Part shown: positions 19,956 to 30,336 of the stretch, one piece after another
How the letters are laid out: the number at the start of each line of letters is the position of its first letter
Position numbering within the stretch: the first letter of the stretch is position 1
Source of the DNA: a virus
DNA length: 48,381 nt
Virus record (IMG/VR): IMGVR_UViG_3300025769_000200
Location: 1 to 48,381 of that record
Direction: 5' to 3' (one strand)
Notes under the pieces: generated by a model
Told to the model about the DNA's origin: nothing
Databases searched by the model: none
Seen by the model: the letters and a program-made list of their open reading frames with translations, nothing else
Translations under genes and position numbers: made by a program

Positions 19956-20171
19956 TTAGTTGATGTTATCGGGATTGCCAAGCGGCGGCACTAAAGTCAT
20001 GCCGATCTGCTCAGCTGTTGGCTGACCCATTAACTCGCGCATCTCGGAGTTAATGCCACCATTTGAAATGATGTGCTGACCATTAATGATGAGACTGTTA
20101 CAAGCTGTCTCGATTGCTTTGCCAACAACCTGTTGACCTGTCTCATCATATAAGTTTATTTCTATCTTCAT
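19956..20171 (-). CDS. Hypothetical protein, 71 aa (accessory cassette)
   Basis: A beta-like N-terminus (KIEINLYDETGQQV) is followed by a short helical part and a Pro/Gly-rich end (VPPLGNPDNIN). No family is recognised. The gene has its own promoter (20208-20236), a strong AGGAGG-type Shine-Dalgarno and its own terminator, so it is an autonomous single-gene cassette. It belongs to a row of such cassettes separated by repeated GC-rich modules. It may be a host-interaction gene expressed early. Confidence 0.65.
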   Translation of the reverse strand: MKIEINLYDETGQQVVGKAIETACNSLIINGQHIISNGGINSEMRELMGQPTAEQIGMTLVPPLGNPDNIN

Positions 20172-20207: not shown

Positions 20208-20236
20208 ATTTAAACACTTTGGTTACATCTTGTCAA
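20208..20236 (-). promoter_or_regulatory. Promoter with GGTTACA operator-like heptamer for the 71-aa gene
   Basis: On the leftward strand TTGACA, a 17-base spacer and TTAAAT. The spacer holds TGTAACC (plus-strand GGTTACA at 20221-20227), which occurs at a similar place in four other promoters of this region. Confidence 0.7.
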
Positions 20237-20257
20237 CAACTATTTTCATTTATTTTT

Positions 20258-20400
20258 CAGACCTGCTTTGGCGAACCCTGGCTGCGAAACGCCAGATCTC
20301 CTGGGCTGCGTGAAGCCTCTTGTGTGTGTTAAGGTACCTGCCAGCTGAGCGGCCCGACCCGAAACTGATACTCAGCCCCGATCCCGACCGCCCATTAGGA
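20258..20400. repeat. GC-rich repeated intergenic module, copy B
   Basis: Leftward strand order: GGTCGGGATCGGGG, TTTCGGGTCGGGCC, then TTAACACACACAAGAGG, then CCCAGGAGATCTGGCG. A small hairpin (CTGGC 20278-20282 with GCCAG 20291-20295) lies at the promoter-proximal end. It fills the gap between the 105-aa gene stop and the 71-aa gene promoter. No gene is seen in it. Confidence 0.6.
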
Positions 20401-20424
20401 ACACCAGCAGGTAAATAAAAATGG

Positions 20425-20742
20425 TTAGCTCAAGCACTTATACATCTCTTCCCAGTAATCATCGATATATTCGTAATCCCAGATTGGAAAGCTGCACTTG
20501 TCCGAACCCCAAAAGCCCTGGATCTCTCCTTCAAATGTGTCAACCCAAACATTAGGACCGCCTCCCGCTATCATTAGCCTAGCGCCCAGGTATTCCCCGC
20601 TTCCGTCAATTATGTAACGAATGGCGTAGGCCTCATAACGACAGTTCTCGTCACCATCTGGGTAAAACATCATGCAACCGTTAGATGCATCTTCAGCATA
20701 TGTCTTGCACATGTGACGCAGTTGTTTTTCACAGTCACTCAT
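20425..20742 (-). CDS. Hypothetical acidic protein, 105 aa, coupled to the methyltransferase-like gene
   Basis: I place the start at the ATG at 20742, which overlaps the upstream stop as ATGA; a start five codons further upstream is less likely. The protein is acidic and rich in Trp, Tyr and Cys (DSNG-type turn regions, VWVDTFEGEIQGFWGSDKC). No domain is recognised. Base composition is richer in G+C than the phage average, as is that of its partner gene. The two probably form one transferred two-gene cassette. Confidence 0.6.
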   Translation of the reverse strand: MSDCEKQLRHMCKTYAEDASNGCMMFYPDGDENCRYEAYAIRYIIDGSGEYLGARLMIAGGGPNVWVDTFEGEIQGFWGSDKCSFPIWDYEYIDDYWEEMYKCLS

Positions 20743-21368
20743 GCTACTGCCCCCCACTGTTCAGCCATCGCTCGCGCTAACCCTTTATGAAACTTGCTTC
20801 TAAACTTCCAACGATCGGGACCAGGACTGGCAAGATGAATATCATGTCTTGCCGTTTCTCTAGTCAGCTCGCTTGTCTTCTGTAACAACGGTAGGTTCTT
20901 CAACCAAAGGCAGGTGCGTTTACTTACGTTGTCTTCAGCCTCAACCGAGTCAGCGAACTCGTAGGGTTGGACGCTTTGCGCAAACGGCTCAAAGTTCTCT
21001 ATTCTGGCCTTCGCATGCTTATGCATGATGGGGTTTTCAATTGCGATCCGCGGCACGTCTGCGTTCCAAAGATCCGAAAAGAGTGCTGCACCTTCATCCA
21101 GCTCCTCCCACATCTCTTCGACAGTTTTGCCAGGAGGTGCTTTGTGCAACCAACGCACACCAGAATTACAAAGCCTGGTGCAGGGTGGATGGGCCACCAT
21201 TAATAGATCCCAAGCTTCCATCTCTAGAACATTTCTGATGTCGTCCTGGATGTGACGGTTGGTCTGATCATCCGCTGGGAGTATGTCGCAGCTCCAAGCG
21301 TCATGACCGTTATCAATAAAAGCGTTTCTAACGATTCCGCTAGTCTCGCATCCAATTAGTATTTTCAT
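20739..21368 (-). CDS. SAM-dependent, cytosine-C5-methyltransferase-like protein, 209 aa
   Basis: The N-terminus MKILIGCETSGIVRNAF resembles the SAM-binding motif I of a phage DNA-methylase-like family. It continues with HDAWSCDILPAD and WDLLMVAHPPCTRLCNSG, where PPC (61-63) matches the catalytic Pro-Cys motif of C5-cytosine methyltransferases. IAIENPIMH (ENP near 111-113) matches the ENV motif, and RTCLWLKNLP follows. At 209 aa it is shorter than standard C5 enzymes and lacks a clear target-recognition domain. G+C is visibly higher than in neighbours, suggesting acquisition. The substrate (phage or host DNA) is not known. Confidence 0.75.
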   Translation of the reverse strand: MKILIGCETSGIVRNAFIDNGHDAWSCDILPADDQTNRHIQDDIRNVLEMEAWDLLMVAHPPCTRLCNSGVRWLHKAPPGKTVEEMWEELDEGAALFSDLWNADVPRIAIENPIMHKHAKARIENFEPFAQSVQPYEFADSVEAEDNVSKRTCLWLKNLPLLQKTSELTRETARHDIHLASPGPDRWKFRSKFHKGLARAMAEQWGAVA

Positions 21369-21399
21369 CTTCTTCTCCTAAATAAGTTAATGAGCCTTT

Positions 21400-21428
21400 A
21401 ATATAACTGACTGGTTACATCTTGTCAA
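21400..21428 (-). promoter_or_regulatory. Strong sigma70 promoter with GGTTACA heptamer for the methyltransferase cassette
   Basis: On the leftward strand a perfect TTGACA, 17 bases, TATATT. The spacer contains TGTAACC (plus-strand GGTTACA 21413-21419). A GGAGAAG Shine-Dalgarno follows before the ATG at 21368. Confidence 0.8.
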
Positions 21429-21450
21429 CTATTAATTTAAAGATCTTTGA

Positions 21451-21581
21451 ACCAGTACTGTCGTCCTGGCCAGAGCTGCTGCGGGCCTCACTTGTGTTTG
21501 TCTTGTGTGTTTCTTCCTGCTTCGCAGAGCTGATGGACGCATTTAGATCCCCGACTTAGATCCCCGACCATCCTGCTGGGC
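21451..21581. repeat. GC-rich repeated intergenic module, copy C
   Basis: Leftward strand order: a tandem pair of GTCGGGGATCTAA, CATCAGCTCTGCGAAGCAGG, AAACACACAAGACAAACACA, then GCTCTGGCCAGGACGAC. It sits between the terminator of the 80-aa gene and the promoter of the methyltransferase gene. No gene is seen in it. Confidence 0.6.
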
Positions 21582-21608
21582 AAAAAAAACCCCTCGAAAA
21601 AGAGGGGC
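21582..21608 (-). terminator. Rho-independent terminator of the 80-aa gene
   Basis: Leftward strand: CCCCTC, loop, GAGGGG followed by eight T, about 20 bases after the stop codon. Confidence 0.88.
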
Positions 21609-21628
21609 TTAGAATAGTTAGAGATCTA

Positions 21629-21871
21629 TTAATCTAACAACACCATATAGGCTTCTGGTTCATGCTCTATAAACCAATCAATACCTTTTCTAACAATCTC
21701 CCAATCGGGATTAGGCATGACTTGCATCCCCATAATGGTATCGTAAACAGCAACCGCATCTGGTGGGATTGTGCATGATGCGCCGCCAAATATATTCTTT
21801 ACCTCTTGCGGCTCTTTGTCTAAGATGTCGCACTTAAAAGGTAAGGTTCTTTCTTTCAATTCTTCTGTCAT
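21629..21871 (-). CDS. Conserved phage hypothetical protein, 80 aa (accessory cassette)
   Basis: The protein contains FGGASCTIPPDAVAVYDTIM and GIDWFIEHEPEAYMVLLD, blocks I recall from a small conserved phage family of unknown function. It is acidic and soluble. The gene has its own promoter (21903-21931) and terminator (21582-21608), forming a monocistronic cassette within the row of repeated modules. A host-takeover or metabolic function is possible; nothing proves it. Confidence 0.65.
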   Translation of the reverse strand: MTEELKERTLPFKCDILDKEPQEVKNIFGGASCTIPPDAVAVYDTIMGMQVMPNPDWEIVRKGIDWFIEHEPEAYMVLLD

Positions 21872-21902
21872 TATTTTCTCCTAAATTAATTAATGAAGTT
21901 CT

Positions 21903-21931
21903 AATATAACTAATTGGATACAAACTGTCAA
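21903..21931 (-). promoter_or_regulatory. Strong sigma70 promoter with GGATACA heptamer for the 80-aa gene
   Basis: On the leftward strand TTGACA, 17 bases, TATATT. The spacer holds TGTATCC (plus-strand GGATACA 21916-21922). A GGAG Shine-Dalgarno follows. Confidence 0.8.
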
Positions 21932-21949
21932 CTACTAATTATAGATCTA

Positions 21950-22064
21950 TTTCATCCTCTCCTGGACAGGGCTGCAACCCCCCTGGTGTGTTTGTGTTTG
22001 TGTGTATCTTATGTGTGTGTAATCTGCTTTGCCGAATCCAAAAGCCCGACCCCGATTCCCCGAC
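21950..22064. repeat. GC-rich repeated intergenic module, copy D
   Basis: Leftward strand order: GTCGGGGAATCGGGGTCGGG, GGCAAAGCAGATTACACACA, AACACAAACACACCAGG, GGGTTGCAGCCCTGTCC, then AGGAG. It sits between the terminator of the 133-aa gene and the promoter of the 80-aa gene. No gene is seen in it. Confidence 0.6.
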
Positions 22065-22089
22065 AAAAAAAACCCCGAGTAGATCGGGG
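22065..22089 (-). terminator. Rho-independent terminator of the 133-aa gene
   Basis: Leftward strand: CCCCGA, 5-base loop, TCGGGG followed by eight T, about 25 bases after the stop. Confidence 0.85.
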
Positions 22090-22113
22090 TCAGTTTGGAG
22101 TTAGTTAGTTAGT

Positions 22114-22515
22114 TCATAAACTTACCTCCTGTTCTAAAATTTTCATCATATCTTCGACAGTCTCTGCCCCCACTTGAGCAATCAAGATTGCATTACATAA
22201 AGAGTTTTGAACACTCCAAGAACTCTCTAAATTTAAACGATAATCTGAATTTTGATTATTGCGATAATCATAATGATCGCTTAACGAAAAATACTCAGAA
22301 GGATTGGTTTGATTAAAGTCATTAATCTCTTTAGAAATAGCCACATTTAGCTTTTCACTTTCTTTGAGTATTTTGTTTCTTTCTGCTTTTAACTTTGTCA
22401 GCTTTTTATAAGTAGCAGTCTTTTTAAAAGCCTCATTTTTGGTAATCATTTGAGATTCCATTCTTCTATAGAACTTGTTAGCTATCGCTTCTCGTTCTTG
22501 TTTATTGGTTTTCAT
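22114..22515 (-). CDS. Hypothetical coiled-coil protein, 133 aa (accessory cassette)
   Basis: The N-terminal 75 residues are strongly helical and charged (KKLTKLKAERNKILKESEKL), predicted coiled coil. The C-terminal part holds YFSLSDHYDYRNNQNSDYRL and ends in an acidic helix. No domain is recognised. The gene has its own promoter (22557-22586), a strong AGGAGG Shine-Dalgarno and its own terminator. It is the upstream-most leftward cassette, diverging from the rightward early operon. Confidence 0.65.
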   Translation of the reverse strand: MKTNKQEREAIANKFYRRMESQMITKNEAFKKTATYKKLTKLKAERNKILKESEKLNVAISKEINDFNQTNPSEYFSLSDHYDYRNNQNSDYRLNLESSWSVQNSLCNAILIAQVGAETVEDMMKILEQEVSL

Positions 22516-22556
22516 TTTATATACCTCCTAAAAGTATGTTGTTTAAATGAACCATA

Positions 22557-22586
22557 AGTATAACACGAGTGGATACATTCTGTCTA
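22557..22586 (-). promoter_or_regulatory. Promoter with GGATACA heptamer for the 133-aa gene
   Basis: On the leftward strand TAGACA, 18 bases, TATACT. The spacer holds TGTATCC (plus-strand GGATACA 22571-22577). Confidence 0.65.
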
Positions 22587-22610
22587 ACTATTTAGTAATC
22601 ATCTTTCTTC

Positions 22611-22744
22611 CACAAACGGCGTCCCAGCTCGGATCTGGAAGACGCCAGAGCTACGCAGATCCTCCTGTTGTGTTATCATGTGTTATGCCTTGCAGAAATC
22701 CCGAACCCCGACACCCGATTCAAATGCCCCGACCCGACCCGAAT
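22611..22744. repeat. GC-rich repeated intergenic module, copy E1
   Basis: Leftward strand order: TTCGGGTCGGGTCGGGGC, AATCGGGTGTCGGGGTTCGG, ATAACACATGATAACACAAC, AGGAGGATCTGCG, then a hairpin GGCGTC (22641-22646 complement) with GACGCC (22618-22623 complement). Six G-runs make it the densest guanine cluster in the window. The divergent gap 22516-23071 holds this copy, copy E2, a polypurine tract and promoters at both ends, but no gene. Confidence 0.6.
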
Positions 22745-22765
22745 GATTTATCAACCTTTCAAGAC

Positions 22766-22872
22766 CATCAACGGCGTCTCCTGGAAGGATCTGGAAGCTC
22801 TGTTGTGTTGTGTTATGTGTAGCAATACACCCCTCATTTAATATTCTTTAGCTTAACCCGACCCGACCCGAT
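22766..22872. repeat. GC-rich repeated intergenic module, copy E2
   Basis: Leftward strand order: ATCGGGTCGGGTCGGG, then a short AT spacer, ACACATAACACAACACAACA, then CTTCCAGATCCTTCCAGGAG and ACGCCGTTG. It shares ACGGCGTC and GGATCTGGAAG (plus strand) with copy E1, so the two are a degenerate direct duplication. Confidence 0.6.
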
Positions 22873-22891
22873 TTTTTCCTAGCTTTTTTGT

Positions 22892-22918
22892 GGGGGAGAG
22901 AGGGAAAGAGAGGGGGGA
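22892..22918 (+). other. 27-base uninterrupted polypurine tract
   Basis: All bases from 22892 to 22918 are A or G, next to a T-rich stretch and followed by a CGCATATGCG palindrome at 22941-22950. It lies at the divergence point between leftward cassettes and the rightward early operon. It could form triplex or unusual structures or mark a replication or transcription control site; no function is shown. Confidence 0.6.
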
Positions 22919-22995
22919 TGCGATTAACTTTCGAATTCCTCGCATATGCGTAAATATAACTATAAAAAATAATTACATTTTGTATAACAAAACAC

Positions 22996-23024
22996 TTGCA
23001 TATATTGGATACATTTAGTAGTAT
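22996..23024 (+). promoter_or_regulatory. Rightward early promoter with GGATACA heptamer
   Basis: TTGCAT, 17 bases, TAGTAT, with GGATACA at 23007-23013 in the spacer. It precedes the AGGAGAG Shine-Dalgarno of the 144-aa gene and probably drives the rightward operon to about 25.3 kb. Confidence 0.6.
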
Positions 23025-23071: not shown

Positions 23072-23506
23072 ATGGGAACAAGAAGTAATATAGCGTATCA
23101 AAAACCAAATGGAAAAGTAGTCGTAATGTATTGTCATTATGACGGCTACCCAGAATACAACGGCAAGATACTTTATAACCACTACAACCACCACAAGAAA
23201 GCAATCGCTTTAGTAGACAACGGCTATCAGTCTGGTCTTAAAGAAACAATAATAGAATCAAACGAGGGTAGAGTTCATCAAGAACCACCTCAAACATTTC
23301 ATTCTATTCATGCTTTCTTAATGAATGTGCAGTTCGATATTGAATGGATTTACCTATTCAAAAACAACTCTTGGTATGTAGCTGAAACCAAGATGATTAA
23401 AATGCCTAATGGCAGATATGATCTTGCAACTTTACATGACAAAGACTTTACACCTCTTTGGGCGTACTTCACAAAACATAATATTGCCGTTGGTGATCAG
23501 TCATGA
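23072..23506 (+). CDS. Conserved phage early protein, 144 aa (MGTRSNIAY family)
   Basis: The N-terminus MGTRSNIAYQKPNGKVV followed by YCHYDGYPEYNGKIL matches a widespread phage protein family that starts M.TRS.IA and has YCHWDGYP.HNG. The later part holds EWIYLFKNNSWYV. Function of the family is unknown to me. It is the first gene of the rightward early operon and overlaps the next gene by four bases. Its Shine-Dalgarno (AGGAGAG) is strong. Confidence 0.75.
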   Translation: MGTRSNIAYQKPNGKVVVMYCHYDGYPEYNGKILYNHYNHHKKAIALVDNGYQSGLKETIIESNEGRVHQEPPQTFHSIHAFLMNVQFDIEWIYLFKNNSWYVAETKMIKMPNGRYDLATLHDKDFTPLWAYFTKHNIAVGDQS

Positions 23507-23913
23507 AGTATAAATTTAAAGAACGCAACAAGTTCAAACATATCAGAAGAAACATTTTTGATATACCTACTGGGGAGTTAGATACTCCCCTAACTAACGG
23601 ACATCAAGTCTTAGAGTTTCTCTTAAGTGTAGCCAATAAAGAACGCTACCAATTCAAAGCAAGGGGTAGAGGTAGCCGTAAGTTTTATGGTAATAGCCAA
23701 GACTTGCCACTAGACCACGCTGAAAAAATAGCACTTTATCACTCTACAAAAAATAATATTGCAGAGAAAGAACACCAAGAATACAGACGATCTAAGTCAG
23801 CTTGGGAGATAAGTTATAAACTCAGACAAATTAAAGATGCGATTGAAATGCATAACAATTGTTTTGACAACGACTTAGAAATTAATTTAGAGGTAAACGA
23901 AAATGAAGTATGA
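23503..23913 (+). CDS. Hypothetical protein, 136 aa
   Basis: The protein is basic and helical. Recognisable stretches are RRNIFDIPTGELDTPLTNGH near the start and a helical C-terminus ending ENEV. No domain is recognised. Its ATG overlaps the upstream stop as ATGA, and its end carries the GAGGTAAACGAAAATG start signal of the next gene. Expressed in the early operon; function unknown. Confidence 0.65.
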   Translation: MKYKFKERNKFKHIRRNIFDIPTGELDTPLTNGHQVLEFLLSVANKERYQFKARGRGSRKFYGNSQDLPLDHAEKIALYHSTKNNIAEKEHQEYRRSKSAWEISYKLRQIKDAIEMHNNCFDNDLEINLEVNENEV

Positions 23914-24133
23914 AGTTAAATTTGGTATGGCAAGAGCATACTACACACCAGAATTGCATGAAAATACTAGAACTAAAATATTTAACAATAAAAATAAAGC
24001 AGAAGATTATTTAAAAAGATTACAAAATTTTGGTTTTAAAGATTCTGTATTTTCTGAATTTAATCTTATAGCTTGGACAGAATTAAATAAGATTAATTTA
24101 AAGGAGAACGAAGATGAAAGAATTAGTAATTAA
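23903..24133 (+). CDS. Hypothetical protein, 76 aa
   Basis: The protein holds ARAYYTPELHENTRTKIFN and KAEDYLKRLQNFGFKDSVFS, giving an alpha/beta look, and ends LKENEDERISN. No family is recognised. Its last codons contain AAGGAGAACGAAGATG, the Shine-Dalgarno and start of the next gene. The same sequence ends two further genes of this operon. Function unknown. Confidence 0.65.
   Translation: MKYEVKFGMARAYYTPELHENTRTKIFNNKNKAEDYLKRLQNFGFKDSVFSEFNLIAWTELNKINLKENEDERISN
24101..24116 (+). repeat. Reused ribosome-binding-site/start sequence (copies also at 24264-24279, 24523-24538 and, diverged, 23890-23905)
   Basis: AAGGAGAACGAAGATG occurs at the junction of the 76-aa and 56-aa genes. It recurs almost unchanged at the next two junctions and in diverged form one junction upstream. 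In each copy the same reading frame encodes the upstream protein's C-terminal (K/M)ENE(D/N), while the ATG starts the next gene. Confidence 0.7.
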
Positions 24134-24284
24134 GCAGACTTGTTATTACAAAGTAAAGGTAAGTACTGATGATATTAAAAAAGATAGAGTATTAGAAAAT
24201 ATTAATACTCATCCTATAGCGCTTTGTGAAAATTCAGAATTACAAGATATTAATACCGAAGTTATGGAGAACGAAGATGAATAA
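24114..24284 (+). CDS. Hypothetical protein, 56 aa
   Basis: The frame runs from an ATG at 24114 to a TAA at 24282. The product starts MKELVIKQTCYYKVKVST and ends NTEVMENEDE. It is small, mixed charged, with a probable beta hairpin at the start. It overlaps the genes on both sides, and its start lies in the shared GGAGAACGAAGATG sequence. No function is suggested by the sequence. Confidence 0.6.
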   Translation: MKELVIKQTCYYKVKVSTDDIKKDRVLENINTHPIALCENSELQDINTEVMENEDE

Positions 24285-24543
24285 TTTAGATAATATTGGT
24301 GTAGATGAACTTGATTATGATATTCAAAATCATATGAAATTTTCTTGGTTTGATACTGATGCTTACGAATTTAACAAAGACGATAACAATGGTTATGTTT
24401 TTGGAATTGTGTCTTGGTATGGTCAATATGATTTAGATACTGTTGCTGATTGGTATAACTCTGATGGTTCAGATATATCTTGGGAATGGTTTGCTACCGA
24501 GCAAGAACGAGATCAAGCATTTAAGGAGAACGAAAATGCTTAA
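24277..24543 (+). CDS. Acidic aromatic-rich protein, 88 aa
   Basis: The start is placed at the ATG at 24277, directly behind GGAGAACGAAG; a longer frame upstream lacks such a signal. The protein is very acidic and rich in Tyr and Trp (FSWFDTDAYEFNKDDNNGYV, DWYNSDGSDISWEWF). Small acidic early phage proteins are often DNA mimics or inhibitors, which is only an idea here. It ends FKENENA with the start of the next gene inside its last codons. Confidence 0.65.
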   Translation: MNNLDNIGVDELDYDIQNHMKFSWFDTDAYEFNKDDNNGYVFGIVSWYGQYDLDTVADWYNSDGSDISWEWFATEQERDQAFKENENA

Positions 24544-24634
24544 CCTTTTAGAAATACTTTTTGAAATTACAACCCTTTTAGTGCTTGTAGCAATTTTATA
24601 TATAATAATAACTGAAGATAATAATAGGAGATAA
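24536..24634 (+). CDS. Single-span membrane microprotein, 32 aa
   Basis: The ATG at 24536 lies in AAGGAGAACGAAAATG. The product begins MLNLLEILFEITTLLVLVAI and ends in a short charged tail TEDNNRR, giving one transmembrane helix with a cytoplasmic-type charged end. It overlaps the previous gene by eight bases. It is one of three membrane microproteins in this operon. Function unknown; it could affect the host membrane early in infection. Confidence 0.6.
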   Translation: MLNLLEILFEITTLLVLVAILYIIITEDNNRR

Positions 24635-24635
24635 G

Positions 24636-24881
24636 ATGACCCAATATTCAGACCAAGTAGAAAAACGCAGGCAGGAAACCCTGGAAGAAAGAATGGATAC
24701 CACTCTTACTTGTTATTACTTTCAAAAGCATGAAAGTAATGAAGATATAGAGGATTACCGACAGCTTGATTATGCAAGTGGACGCAGAGTCATAACTAAT
24801 ATCAGTAAACCTGGCAGACCCAAGACAACCCAAACAGAACCTATGCGCAAATGGTTATATGAAACCTTCTTTGCTAAATGA
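24636..24881 (+). CDS. Hypothetical protein, 81 aa
   Basis: The protein is hydrophilic: a charged helix (DQVEKRRQETLEERMDTT), then YRQLDYASGRRV and a Pro/Thr linker before RKWLYETFFAK. The Shine-Dalgarno AGGAG lies in the end of the preceding gene. Its stop overlaps the next start as ATGA. No domain is recognised. Confidence 0.65.
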   Translation: MTQYSDQVEKRRQETLEERMDTTLTCYYFQKHESNEDIEDYRQLDYASGRRVITNISKPGRPKTTQTEPMRKWLYETFFAK

Positions 24882-25937: not shown

Positions 25938-26007
25938 GTTGTTTTAAGCATATTAGAGTGAGATAGTTATTAATACCTACCCCCACTTTACCCTAAAGTG
26001 TATTGAG

Positions 26008-26901: not shown

Positions 26902-26927
26902 TTGTAACCTCCTAAAGTTTCTATATG

Positions 26928-26960
26928 TAGACATTATAGACTTTTTCCTTTAAAATGCAA
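26928..26960. promoter_or_regulatory. Overlapping divergent promoters between the 67-aa and 57-aa genes
   Basis: Leftward: TTGCAT, 16 bases, TATAAT (26960-26933). Rightward: TAGACA, 17 bases, TAAAAT (26928-26956). The two occupy the same DNA, so RNA polymerase binding to one would exclude the other. Confidence 0.6.
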
Positions 26961-28727: not shown

Positions 28728-29186
28728 CTAGAATGGAGGTTTATCTCCAGGTGCAGCTGGTTTCATCTCTGAAGGTTCCATCTTAATGATTTTAGTCTTC
28801 AACGAAGTAACAGCTTGGCCGTCATTATTAGTCCAGTTGTCTTCATACTGTCTAATGCCAACTTTAAGTTGCTTACCAATAAAATCTTTTGCAAGATCTG
28901 GTAGCTTTTTAAATCCACAAACAAGAGCAAGCCGACTAAATATCTCGCTTGCTATTCTTTTTGAATCTTCGTTAGCAGACCATAAGTTATACCATTCATT
29001 ATGATCTCGGTAGTTACCGCCATCAATTTGAAAAGTTACCTTCTGCGTCCAATTACCGCTGTTAGATTTATATTTCTCAGCAGCAATAATCTTTGCCTCG
29101 TACTCACCAGTTGGAGCAACCTCTGGACCTTTCGATTCCATTTGCTCCGCATTCTCAAAAAAATCAACGCCATCAAAATCTGACAT
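28728..29186 (-). CDS. DUF669-like single-stranded DNA-binding protein, 152 aa
   Basis: The layout fits DUF669: PTGEYEAKIIAAEKYKSNSG, then KVTFQIDGGNYRDHNEWYNL and LVCGFKKLPDLAKDFIGKQL. It ends PGDKPPF, reminiscent of SSB C-terminal tips, although less acidic. Members of this family sit next to phage recombinases and are thought to bind ssDNA. Its start overlaps the Sak4-like stop, so the two are co-translated. It probably coats ssDNA for annealing. Confidence 0.75.
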   Translation of the reverse strand: MSDFDGVDFFENAEQMESKGPEVAPTGEYEAKIIAAEKYKSNSGNWTQKVTFQIDGGNYRDHNEWYNLWSANEDSKRIASEIFSRLALVCGFKKLPDLAKDFIGKQLKVGIRQYEDNWTNNDGQAVTSLKTKIIKMEPSEMKPAAPGDKPPF

Positions 29187-29902
29187 TACGCACTCTCCTT
29201 ATTTTCAATATTAATATTAAACCCTAATTTTGTAATTAGAGCAGTTAGATTTGGTTCCTCAAAGGCTTCTAGCTTACCGCTACGATCTTTGGCTGTGTAG
29301 CCTTGACCTATCCTTGTTTGTAACCACCTTGCAGCTACGGGATTACCGTCATCATCTTGATCTTCGATAACTCGTAGTGCCAAAACCTCGTCAAAGAAAT
29401 ACGTAATTGCATCCCCCAAAGGTTTACTTGCCATCTTAGGACCAAAGAAAAATACACCATCATTATTTTCTTTACCTTCTTTGCAAAGAAATAATACATG
29501 CATATCTAGATCCCTAAATGATCTCATTAGACTTGTAACAGCTTCACTTACGTTTTGATAAGCCATTCTTCCGTCTTTGTTTCTACCTTTCTCATGTACC
29601 AACAAGATCTCAGAAATCTCTGATACAGAGTCTAAACATACGCTATCGTAGACTAATTCACCAGATTTAAGAGCAGCATACACTTCTCTTAAATCGTCAT
29701 AATTAGATACTTCAATAGCAGATACGTTAGGCGCATCTTTAATGGAAAGCAAACCAGCTTCCGCACTAATAACTAAAACCTTACCTGGCATACTTTGTGT
29801 TGAAAAAGTTTTACCAGCTCCCGCTTGACCATATACAAGAAGCTTGGCCCCTTGTTGGTCCACCAATTTATCAGGTGTTTTTATCTTATCTTTTAAGCTC
29901 AT
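29186..29902 (-). CDS. Sak4-like RecA-fold ATPase (AAA_24), 238 aa
   Basis: Walker A is GQAGAGKT at residues 25-32 and a Walker B-like VCLDS is at 88-92. The overall order (KLLVYGQAGAGKTFST, VISAEAG, then FLCKEGKENNDGVFFFGP) fits the phage nucleotide-binding AAA_24/Sak4 family of single-strand annealing recombinases. It is followed by a DUF669 SSB-like gene, the usual partner. It probably promotes annealing with the RecE-like exonuclease. The promoter region is shared with the divergent HTH regulator. Confidence 0.82.
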   Translation of the reverse strand: MSLKDKIKTPDKLVDQQGAKLLVYGQAGAGKTFSTQSMPGKVLVISAEAGLLSIKDAPNVSAIEVSNYDDLREVYAALKSGELVYDSVCLDSVSEISEILLVHEKGRNKDGRMAYQNVSEAVTSLMRSFRDLDMHVLFLCKEGKENNDGVFFFGPKMASKPLGDAITYFFDEVLALRVIEDQDDDGNPVAARWLQTRIGQGYTAKDRSGKLEAFEEPNLTALITKLGFNINIENKESA

Positions 29903-29936: not shown

Positions 29937-29972
29937 TTGATTATTATAACCCAAGAAACTACAATATGTAAA
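29937..29972. promoter_or_regulatory. Overlapping divergent promoters between Sak4-like gene and HTH regulator
   Basis: Rightward: TTGATT, 17 bases, TACAAT (29937-29965). Leftward: TTTACA, 18 bases, TATAAT (29972-29943). The core carries TATAACCCAAG, a weak relative of the TGTAWCC heptamer. It is a likely site for autoregulation by the 113-aa regulator. Confidence 0.65.
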
Positions 29973-29994
29973 TCATATTATTTAGGAGAAGTAT

Positions 29995-30336
29995 ATGAGC
30001 AAACAAAACGATATAACTTGGCTAGCTAATTACTATTTTAGGTCCAAGGCTATTGCAACAAAAAAATTAAAGGAGTTAAGTACTATGGGCGTTCAACCAA
30101 AGCATAAAGAAAGAAAAGTAGATCAATACACATTATCTGGTTATATAAAGTTTTTAGGTCATAAAAAAGCAGCAGAAGATTTTAATTGTTCTGAAGCATC
30201 ATGCAAATCCTGGAGGTATGGATACAGGCAACCATCTATAGCGCAAGCTAAACAGATCATCCAAGCAACAGAGGGAAGATTAGACTTTGAATCTATTTAC
30301 GGTTCTATATCTGAAATTTTAGAAGAACAAAAATAG
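29995..30336 (+). CDS. Cro/CI-like helix-turn-helix regulator, 113 aa
   Basis: Residues 48-100 hold LSGYIKFLGHKKAAEDFNCS followed by EASCKSWRYGYRQPSIAQAK, a Cro/YdaS-type helix-turn-helix, and then IIQATEGRLDFESIYG. The N-terminal 40 residues are basic and may be an extra DNA-contact arm. It is divergent from the Sak4-like gene and directly upstream of the replication protein, two bases apart from it. It probably controls early transcription and might bind the shared GGWTACA heptamers, which is inference. Confidence 0.78.
   Translation: MSKQNDITWLANYYFRSKAIATKKLKELSTMGVQPKHKERKVDQYTLSGYIKFLGHKKAAEDFNCSEASCKSWRYGYRQPSIAQAKQIIQATEGRLDFESIYGSISEILEEQK

Follow-up and report, generated by a model that had tools for sequence, protein, structure and literature searches.

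Phages of the lambda/P22 type control their early promoters through Cro and cI operators of ~17 bp, which are imperfect dyads placed over the −35 hexamer and spacer or over the −10 hexamer and which are bound by small phage-encoded helix-turn-helix (HTH) proteins, with a site beside the regulator gene. Here, we describe a similar element in the 48,381-base IMG/VR virus record IMGVR_UViG_3300025769_000200 (in the following, the window), where it recurs in the promoters of an island of accessory genes and of an early operon. As in the lambda/P22-type systems, the phage encodes a small HTH protein, of 113 amino acids (aa), and a probable site (candidate operator 7; Table 1) adjoins its gene. Unlike the OR and OL triplets, the sites here are single and lie over five or more separate promoters; moreover, no integrase was found in the window, and operator binding is a prediction. 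We conclude that the operator set is real and conserved, and we suggest that it is of a familiar kind, i.e., a Cro-like repressor with its operators, in an unusual layout over single-gene accessory units. We know of no studied phage with this operator sequence. A lambda switch proper would imply a temperate phage with an integrase and a CI/Cro pair; neither an integrase nor a second repressor was recognized among the window proteins searched, which cover part of the open reading frames (ORFs) of a possibly incomplete record. We therefore refrain from the term lambda-type switch but retain the term Cro-like repressor.

The large terminase subunit (TerL) of the window is 57–64% identical to those of the Pelagibacter phages HTVC023P and HTVC027P and of DSL-LC04 and 023Pt_psg01, and HTVC027P, of the HTVC023P/HTVC027P type of SAR11 phages, is a relative. 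Between the genes for the small terminase subunit (TerS) and TerL, HTVC027P likewise carries genes read leftward from TTGACA promoters; gp33 and gp34, which lie there, are highly expressed in early to middle infection (PMC12753301). In the infection transcriptome of HTVC027P, all early genes are reported to be of unknown function (PMC12753301). In the HTVC023P/HTVC027P-type phages, we found no homolog of the HTH protein at E ≤ 0.01, and no spacer operator is present in those parts of HTVC027P and DSL-LC04 that were examined. HTVC027P, which carries TTGACA promoters in the corresponding position, has neither the HTH protein nor the operator. We found no description of early-gene control in the phage family of the window. 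The operator, the promoters, and the candidate regulator together provide a testable regulon for a marine phage family known here mainly from metagenomes.

A common promoter element in the island and the early operon

An earlier note on this DNA had proposed that five promoters share the heptamer GGWTACA (W, A or T) within the spacer. All five heptamers are found where they had been placed (GGTTACA at 20221 and 21413; GGATACA at 21916, 22571, and 23007), and each lies between a σ70-like −35 and −10 hexamer. The four leftward promoters (TTGACA-N18-TAAATT, TTGACA-N17-TATATT twice, and TAGACA-N18-TATACT) have a constant spacing, in which the −35 is followed by 3 nt and then by TGTAWCCA, the reverse complement of TGGWTACA. 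In the rightward early promoter P5 (TTGCAT-N17-TAGTAT), the element is inverted relative to the leftward promoters and lies at another distance from the −35, with no further similarity between the promoters.

The element is conserved in relatives of the phage. For orthologs of the downstream proteins in IMG/VR loci, we compared the sequences that precede the genes; TGTAWCC stands upstream of the 71-aa gene orthologs in 13 of the 15 regions listed. Most close relatives of the methyltransferase (≥84% identity) have TGTAWCC or TGTATCT upstream, while the distant methyltransferase contigs of other phages have neither. To describe the spacer blind to the motif, promoters were picked by −35 and −10 alone, giving 27 non-redundant island promoters. 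Spacer positions 4–11 carry 0.44–1.56 bits, similar to the −35, compared with 0.06–0.27 bits at positions 1–3 and 0.17–0.58 bits at positions 12–17; these numbers are rough because families were equally weighted and one has a single member. TGTA lies exactly 3 nt past the −35 in 16 of the 27 promoters, and several of the 11 misses are visibly mis-called promoters.

The element is also specific to the phage family. In a blind IMG/VR scan with GTTGACA-N3-TGTAWCCA, we classified a sample of 116 loci among the matches listed, of which 57 share proteins with the window. Within this sample, all loci with two to three copies (17/17) belong to the phage family of the window, whereas the 59 unrelated viral loci have a single copy each. 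In GTDB genomes, the same scan returned single-copy loci only, none of which has proteins of the phage family. Because the multi-copy loci all fall in the family and the loci elsewhere are single, we conclude that the element is family-specific over a background of single chance matches. Its conservation in orthologous promoters, its family specificity, and its position over the −35 and upstream spacer make it a well-supported interpretation, as put forward in the earlier note, that the accessory island and the early operon share an operator.

The earlier note had named enrichment only in promoters as support for the operator. It is the extended sequence rather than the heptamer that is enriched, and the heptamer stands out by its placement in the promoters. 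GGWTACA occurs 13 times in the window compared with 8.6 ± 2.9 expected from shuffles (9 of 100 shuffles reach 13), i.e., it is barely enriched, and the eight copies outside the promoters correspond to background. The extended leftward 18-mer is enriched, with four sites at ≤3 mismatches compared with 0.59 expected, and none of 100 shuffles reaches four. Using a matrix built solely from sites in relatives, leaving out 17-mers that occur in the window, the four island sites rank 1–4 with scores of 17.3–22.5, above the best score from 30 Markov-null sequences (16.7), while P5 ranks 7 and falls below this maximum. Two candidate operators that are absent from the earlier set, 5 (22971–22987) and 7 (29957–29973), rank 5 and 10, respectively. 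Candidate operator 5 has counterparts in relatives, and the 36 bp between its center and that of the P5 operator are kept in the relatives compared (by eye). Candidate operator 7 lies ~20 bp ahead of the start codon of the HTH gene, and its geometry (−35, 3 nt, TGTA) is also present in a second HTH clade (clade B, ~53% identity).

The GGATACC at the TerS −10, which had been regarded as a related site, has a geometry unlike that of the operator and is not ranked within the first 30 by the matrix. A BirA box (TTGTAACC-N15/16-GGTTACAA) was rejected because there is no inverted TGTAACC/GGTTACA pair 15–16 nt apart, and there is no opposite-strand GGWTACA near any of the five sites.

A probable 17-bp dyad and its candidate binder

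The unit of recognition is probably not the heptamer but an imperfect 17-bp dyad, GGWTAC-N5-GTAWCC with the core TAC-N5-GTA. In relatives, the promoter of the 133-aa gene carries GTTTAC-AAACT-GTATAC, GTATAC-AAAGT-GTAACC, GATTAC-ACTTT-GTAACC, and GGTGAC-ACTTT-GTAACC, and P5 carries GGATAC-ATTTA-GTAGTA, GTATAC-ATTCT-GTAGTA, GGATAC-ATTTG-GTAATC, and GGTGAC-ATATA-GTAACC. The strong half may stand on either side, facing an inverted AC/GT five bases off, and these variants suggest a dyad in which either half can be the strong one. The pattern suggests that the −35 (TTGAC, TTTAC, TATAC, or GTGAC) incorporates the second half, which in P5 instead overlaps the −10. When centers over the whole arms were compared, the dyad center ranked first of 48 tested; this rank is driven by the inner AC/GT pairs, and the sites had been selected with the AC-N5-GT pattern.

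The 113-aa protein appears to be an HTH protein of the lambda-repressor type (Cro/YdaS-like) and is the only regulator recognized among the early proteins searched. Its profile matches are weak and point to phage repressors (phrog_35; E from 7e-4 to, at best, 2.3e-5). An AlphaFold2 model has a mean predicted local distance difference test score (pLDDT) of 73.5, rising to 80–88 across residues 51–100, and its best Foldseek match is YdaS of the Escherichia coli prophage CP-933P (8co2, 8c7k; probability 1.00, E 0.015), with 24–27% identity over ~70 residues. Compared with YdaS, the 113-aa protein has an additional N-terminal helix (residues 8–30 in the model), and the neighbor of its gene is a primase gene rather than YdaT. 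Pfam matches up to E 10 included no YdaS model, and a PDB sequence search with the HTH profile returned nothing meaningful. Weakly similar proteins of Aeromonas and Pseudomonas phages are too distant for a comparison of operators.

Across 37 records, the HTH protein and the operator tend to occur together: the HTH protein is present in 10 of the 12 operator-bearing records, the remaining two being fragments of 16–20 kb, and the operator is absent from 13 of the 15 records without the HTH protein. Being the sole regulator recognized and tracking the sites across records, the 113-aa protein, which had been named as the binder in the earlier note, is the best candidate for this role. One record, IMGVR_UViG_3300005611_000114 (G001), tempers this assignment. 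G001 is a mosaic with a junction at ~12.6–13.5 kb: its replication half (clade B) is 50–60% identical to window proteins, and its island and structural half (clade A) is mostly 90–100% identical. It may be a recombinant, an assembly chimera, or a sign that the HTH protein is not the binder. The clade-B loci offer no direct test of HTH specificity because the clade-B HTH phages have no TGTAWCC promoters in the loci examined and G001 is a clade A/B mosaic. In four clade-B genomes, the homologous island/early divergent region has the related sequence YAC-AAANA-GTAGACA. In this region, clade-B relatives show the inverted repeat TCTAC-AAATA-GTAGACA and variants of it, in which GTAGACA is the −35 of the early promoter.

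Proposed repression by a Cro-like protein and its alternatives

We consider it fairly probable that the early and accessory regulon is shut off by the phage's own Cro-like 113-aa repressor by means of the 17-bp operators. According to this model, the heptamer would be the strong half of an imperfect inverted repeat that serves as the repressor operator. At the leftward promoters, with the second half inside the −35, the site would cover about −36 to −20, and at P5 the weak half would lie over the −10. The 113-aa protein, as the likely binder, would bind as a dimer and repress the island genes together with the early operon and the promoter that faces P5; its effect would be weaker at the Sak4 promoter adjoining its own gene. 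In this way, early and accessory transcription would cease as replication begins; this timing seems likely because the HTH gene precedes the primase gene and no integrase was found. Repression is favored over activation because the sites lie over near-consensus −35 and −10 hexamers with spacers of 16–18 bp.

Several observations weigh against this model. The outer pairs of the dyad alone are no better than other centers, and in the leftward promoters the inner AC falls on the −35; because of this, and because of the preselection for AC-N5-GT, we have only moderate confidence in the dyad. On matrix score alone, sites 5–7 are inside the range expected by chance, and because only sites 1–4 exceed all null maxima, it is geometry and conservation that support sites 5–7. 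For the protein, the Pfam Cro match is 13.3 bits with a cut-off of 32.7, Foldseek gave no match at E ≤ 0.001, and the confidence of the HTH model is moderate (pLDDT 73.5). Finally, G001 combines clade-A operators with a clade-B HTH protein (~53% identity).

The last observation fits an alternative in which the sites are operators but are bound by a host transcription factor or another unrecognized phage protein, so that the accessory genes would follow a host signal or respond to a factor besides the 113-aa protein. This alternative, which we regard as unlikely, could also draw on the many small early proteins that match no family, and GTDB genomes gave no relatives of the 113-aa protein by which a host, and with it host regulators, could be named. 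A factor of this kind would have to be reconciled with multi-copy operators that are confined, among the matches listed, to the phage family of the window rather than shared with unrelated viral or cellular loci, with the lack of sites in related phages that lack the HTH protein, and with the site of the same geometry adjoining the HTH gene.

Two further alternatives concern what the element does. MerR-type regulators have their site in the promoter spacer, and the position of the element could suggest a protein that activates by binding between the −35 and −10 and realigning or recruiting RNA polymerase. We find this improbable: the island promoters, with spacers of 16–18 bp and near-consensus hexamers, should work without an activator, the site overlaps the promoter hexamers, and the HTH protein is Cro/YdaS-like rather than MerR-like. 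The similarity between promoters 2 and 3 extends far past the motif, as if the heptamer were no operator but a by-product of duplication of the island promoters, or else a core-promoter element for RNA polymerase. Orthologs, however, keep the motif while the spacer has diverged on both sides of it, by which a duplication artefact is largely refuted. The motif of P5, inverted, at a different distance from its −35, and without other similarity, speaks against both versions, and its inversion disfavors an element read by RNA polymerase. We give this explanation hardly any weight.

Returning to repression by the 113-aa protein, we tentatively, and with more doubt than belief, extend the model to a Cro/YdaS-like repressor acting as the master switch of a plug-in accessory island in a phage in which no integrase was found, with operator and regulator having diverged jointly in clade B. 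Each single-gene island unit would be read from a strong promoter of its own whose −35 incorporates the operator, and the second HTH clade would use a related operator (core AC-N5-GTA, with other flanks) at its own early divergent promoter. If this is true, newly acquired genes would enter the early-shut-off regulon on arrival. Independently of this extension, the operator is a sequence signature by which units of accessory genes can be recognized in these phages, among them a DNA methyltransferase.

Features of the window and additional observations

Genes recognized in the window include those for portal, terminase, exonuclease VIII-like, Sak4-like, DUF669, and primase/helicase proteins, and intergenic DNA amounts to 9.2% of the window. 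Positions of the genes and sites are listed in Table 1.

Table 1. Operators, candidate operators, and associated genes in the window
Feature	Position	Strand	Sequence or remarks
Operator 1	20221–20237	−	GTTGAC-AAGAT-GTAACC; promoter of 71-aa gene; −35 TTGACA 20236–20231
Operator 2	21413–21429	−	GTTGAC-AAGAT-GTAACC; methyltransferase promoter; −35 21428, −10 end 21400
Operator 3	21916–21932	−	GTTGAC-AGTTT-GTATCC; promoter of 80-aa gene; −35 21931, −10 end 21903
Operator 4	22571–22587	−	TTAGAC-AGAAT-GTATCC; promoter of 133-aa gene; −35 22586, −10 end 22557
Candidate operator 5	22971–22987	−	TTATAC-AAAAT-GTAATT; over −35 (TATACA 22986) of leftward promoter facing P5
Operator 6	23007–23023	+	GGATAC-ATTTA-GTAGTA; P5; −35 TTGCAT 22996, −10 TAGTAT end 23024; weak half overlaps −10
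Candidate operator 7	29957–29973	−	ATTTAC-ATATT-GTAGTT; over −35 (TTTACA 29972) of leftward Sak4 promoter
71-aa island gene	19956–20171	−	Function not assigned
209-aa DNA methyltransferase gene	20739–21368	−	phrog_757; then 110-aa ORF 20425–20757
80-aa island gene	21629–21871	−	Function not assigned
133-aa island gene	22114–22515	−	Function not assigned
Early operon	23072–24881	+	Small genes that follow P5; the first (144 aa, phrog_1987) has no assigned function
Sak4-like single-stranded DNA annealing protein gene	29186–29902	−	Divergent from HTH gene
113-aa HTH protein gene	29995–30336	+	Cro/YdaS-like; candidate binder

Between the island genes, there are GC-rich stretches of the CCCGA(T/C)CCCGA type and TGTGTGT runs that are apparently noncoding (20360–20400, 21545–21575, 22045–22070, 22690–22745, and 22855–22875). 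Upstream of the small terminase gene, a noncoding block that is strongly conserved among relatives contains, at 25984–26000, an inverted repeat (CACTTTACCCTAAAGTG) with perfect 7-bp arms around a 3-nt center, which could be the operator of another regulator or a packaging site. At 26916–26956, a rightward promoter lies 5' of the 57-aa and exonuclease genes; its GTAGACATTATA block is conserved in relatives, and the operator system may have an additional, weaker site here.

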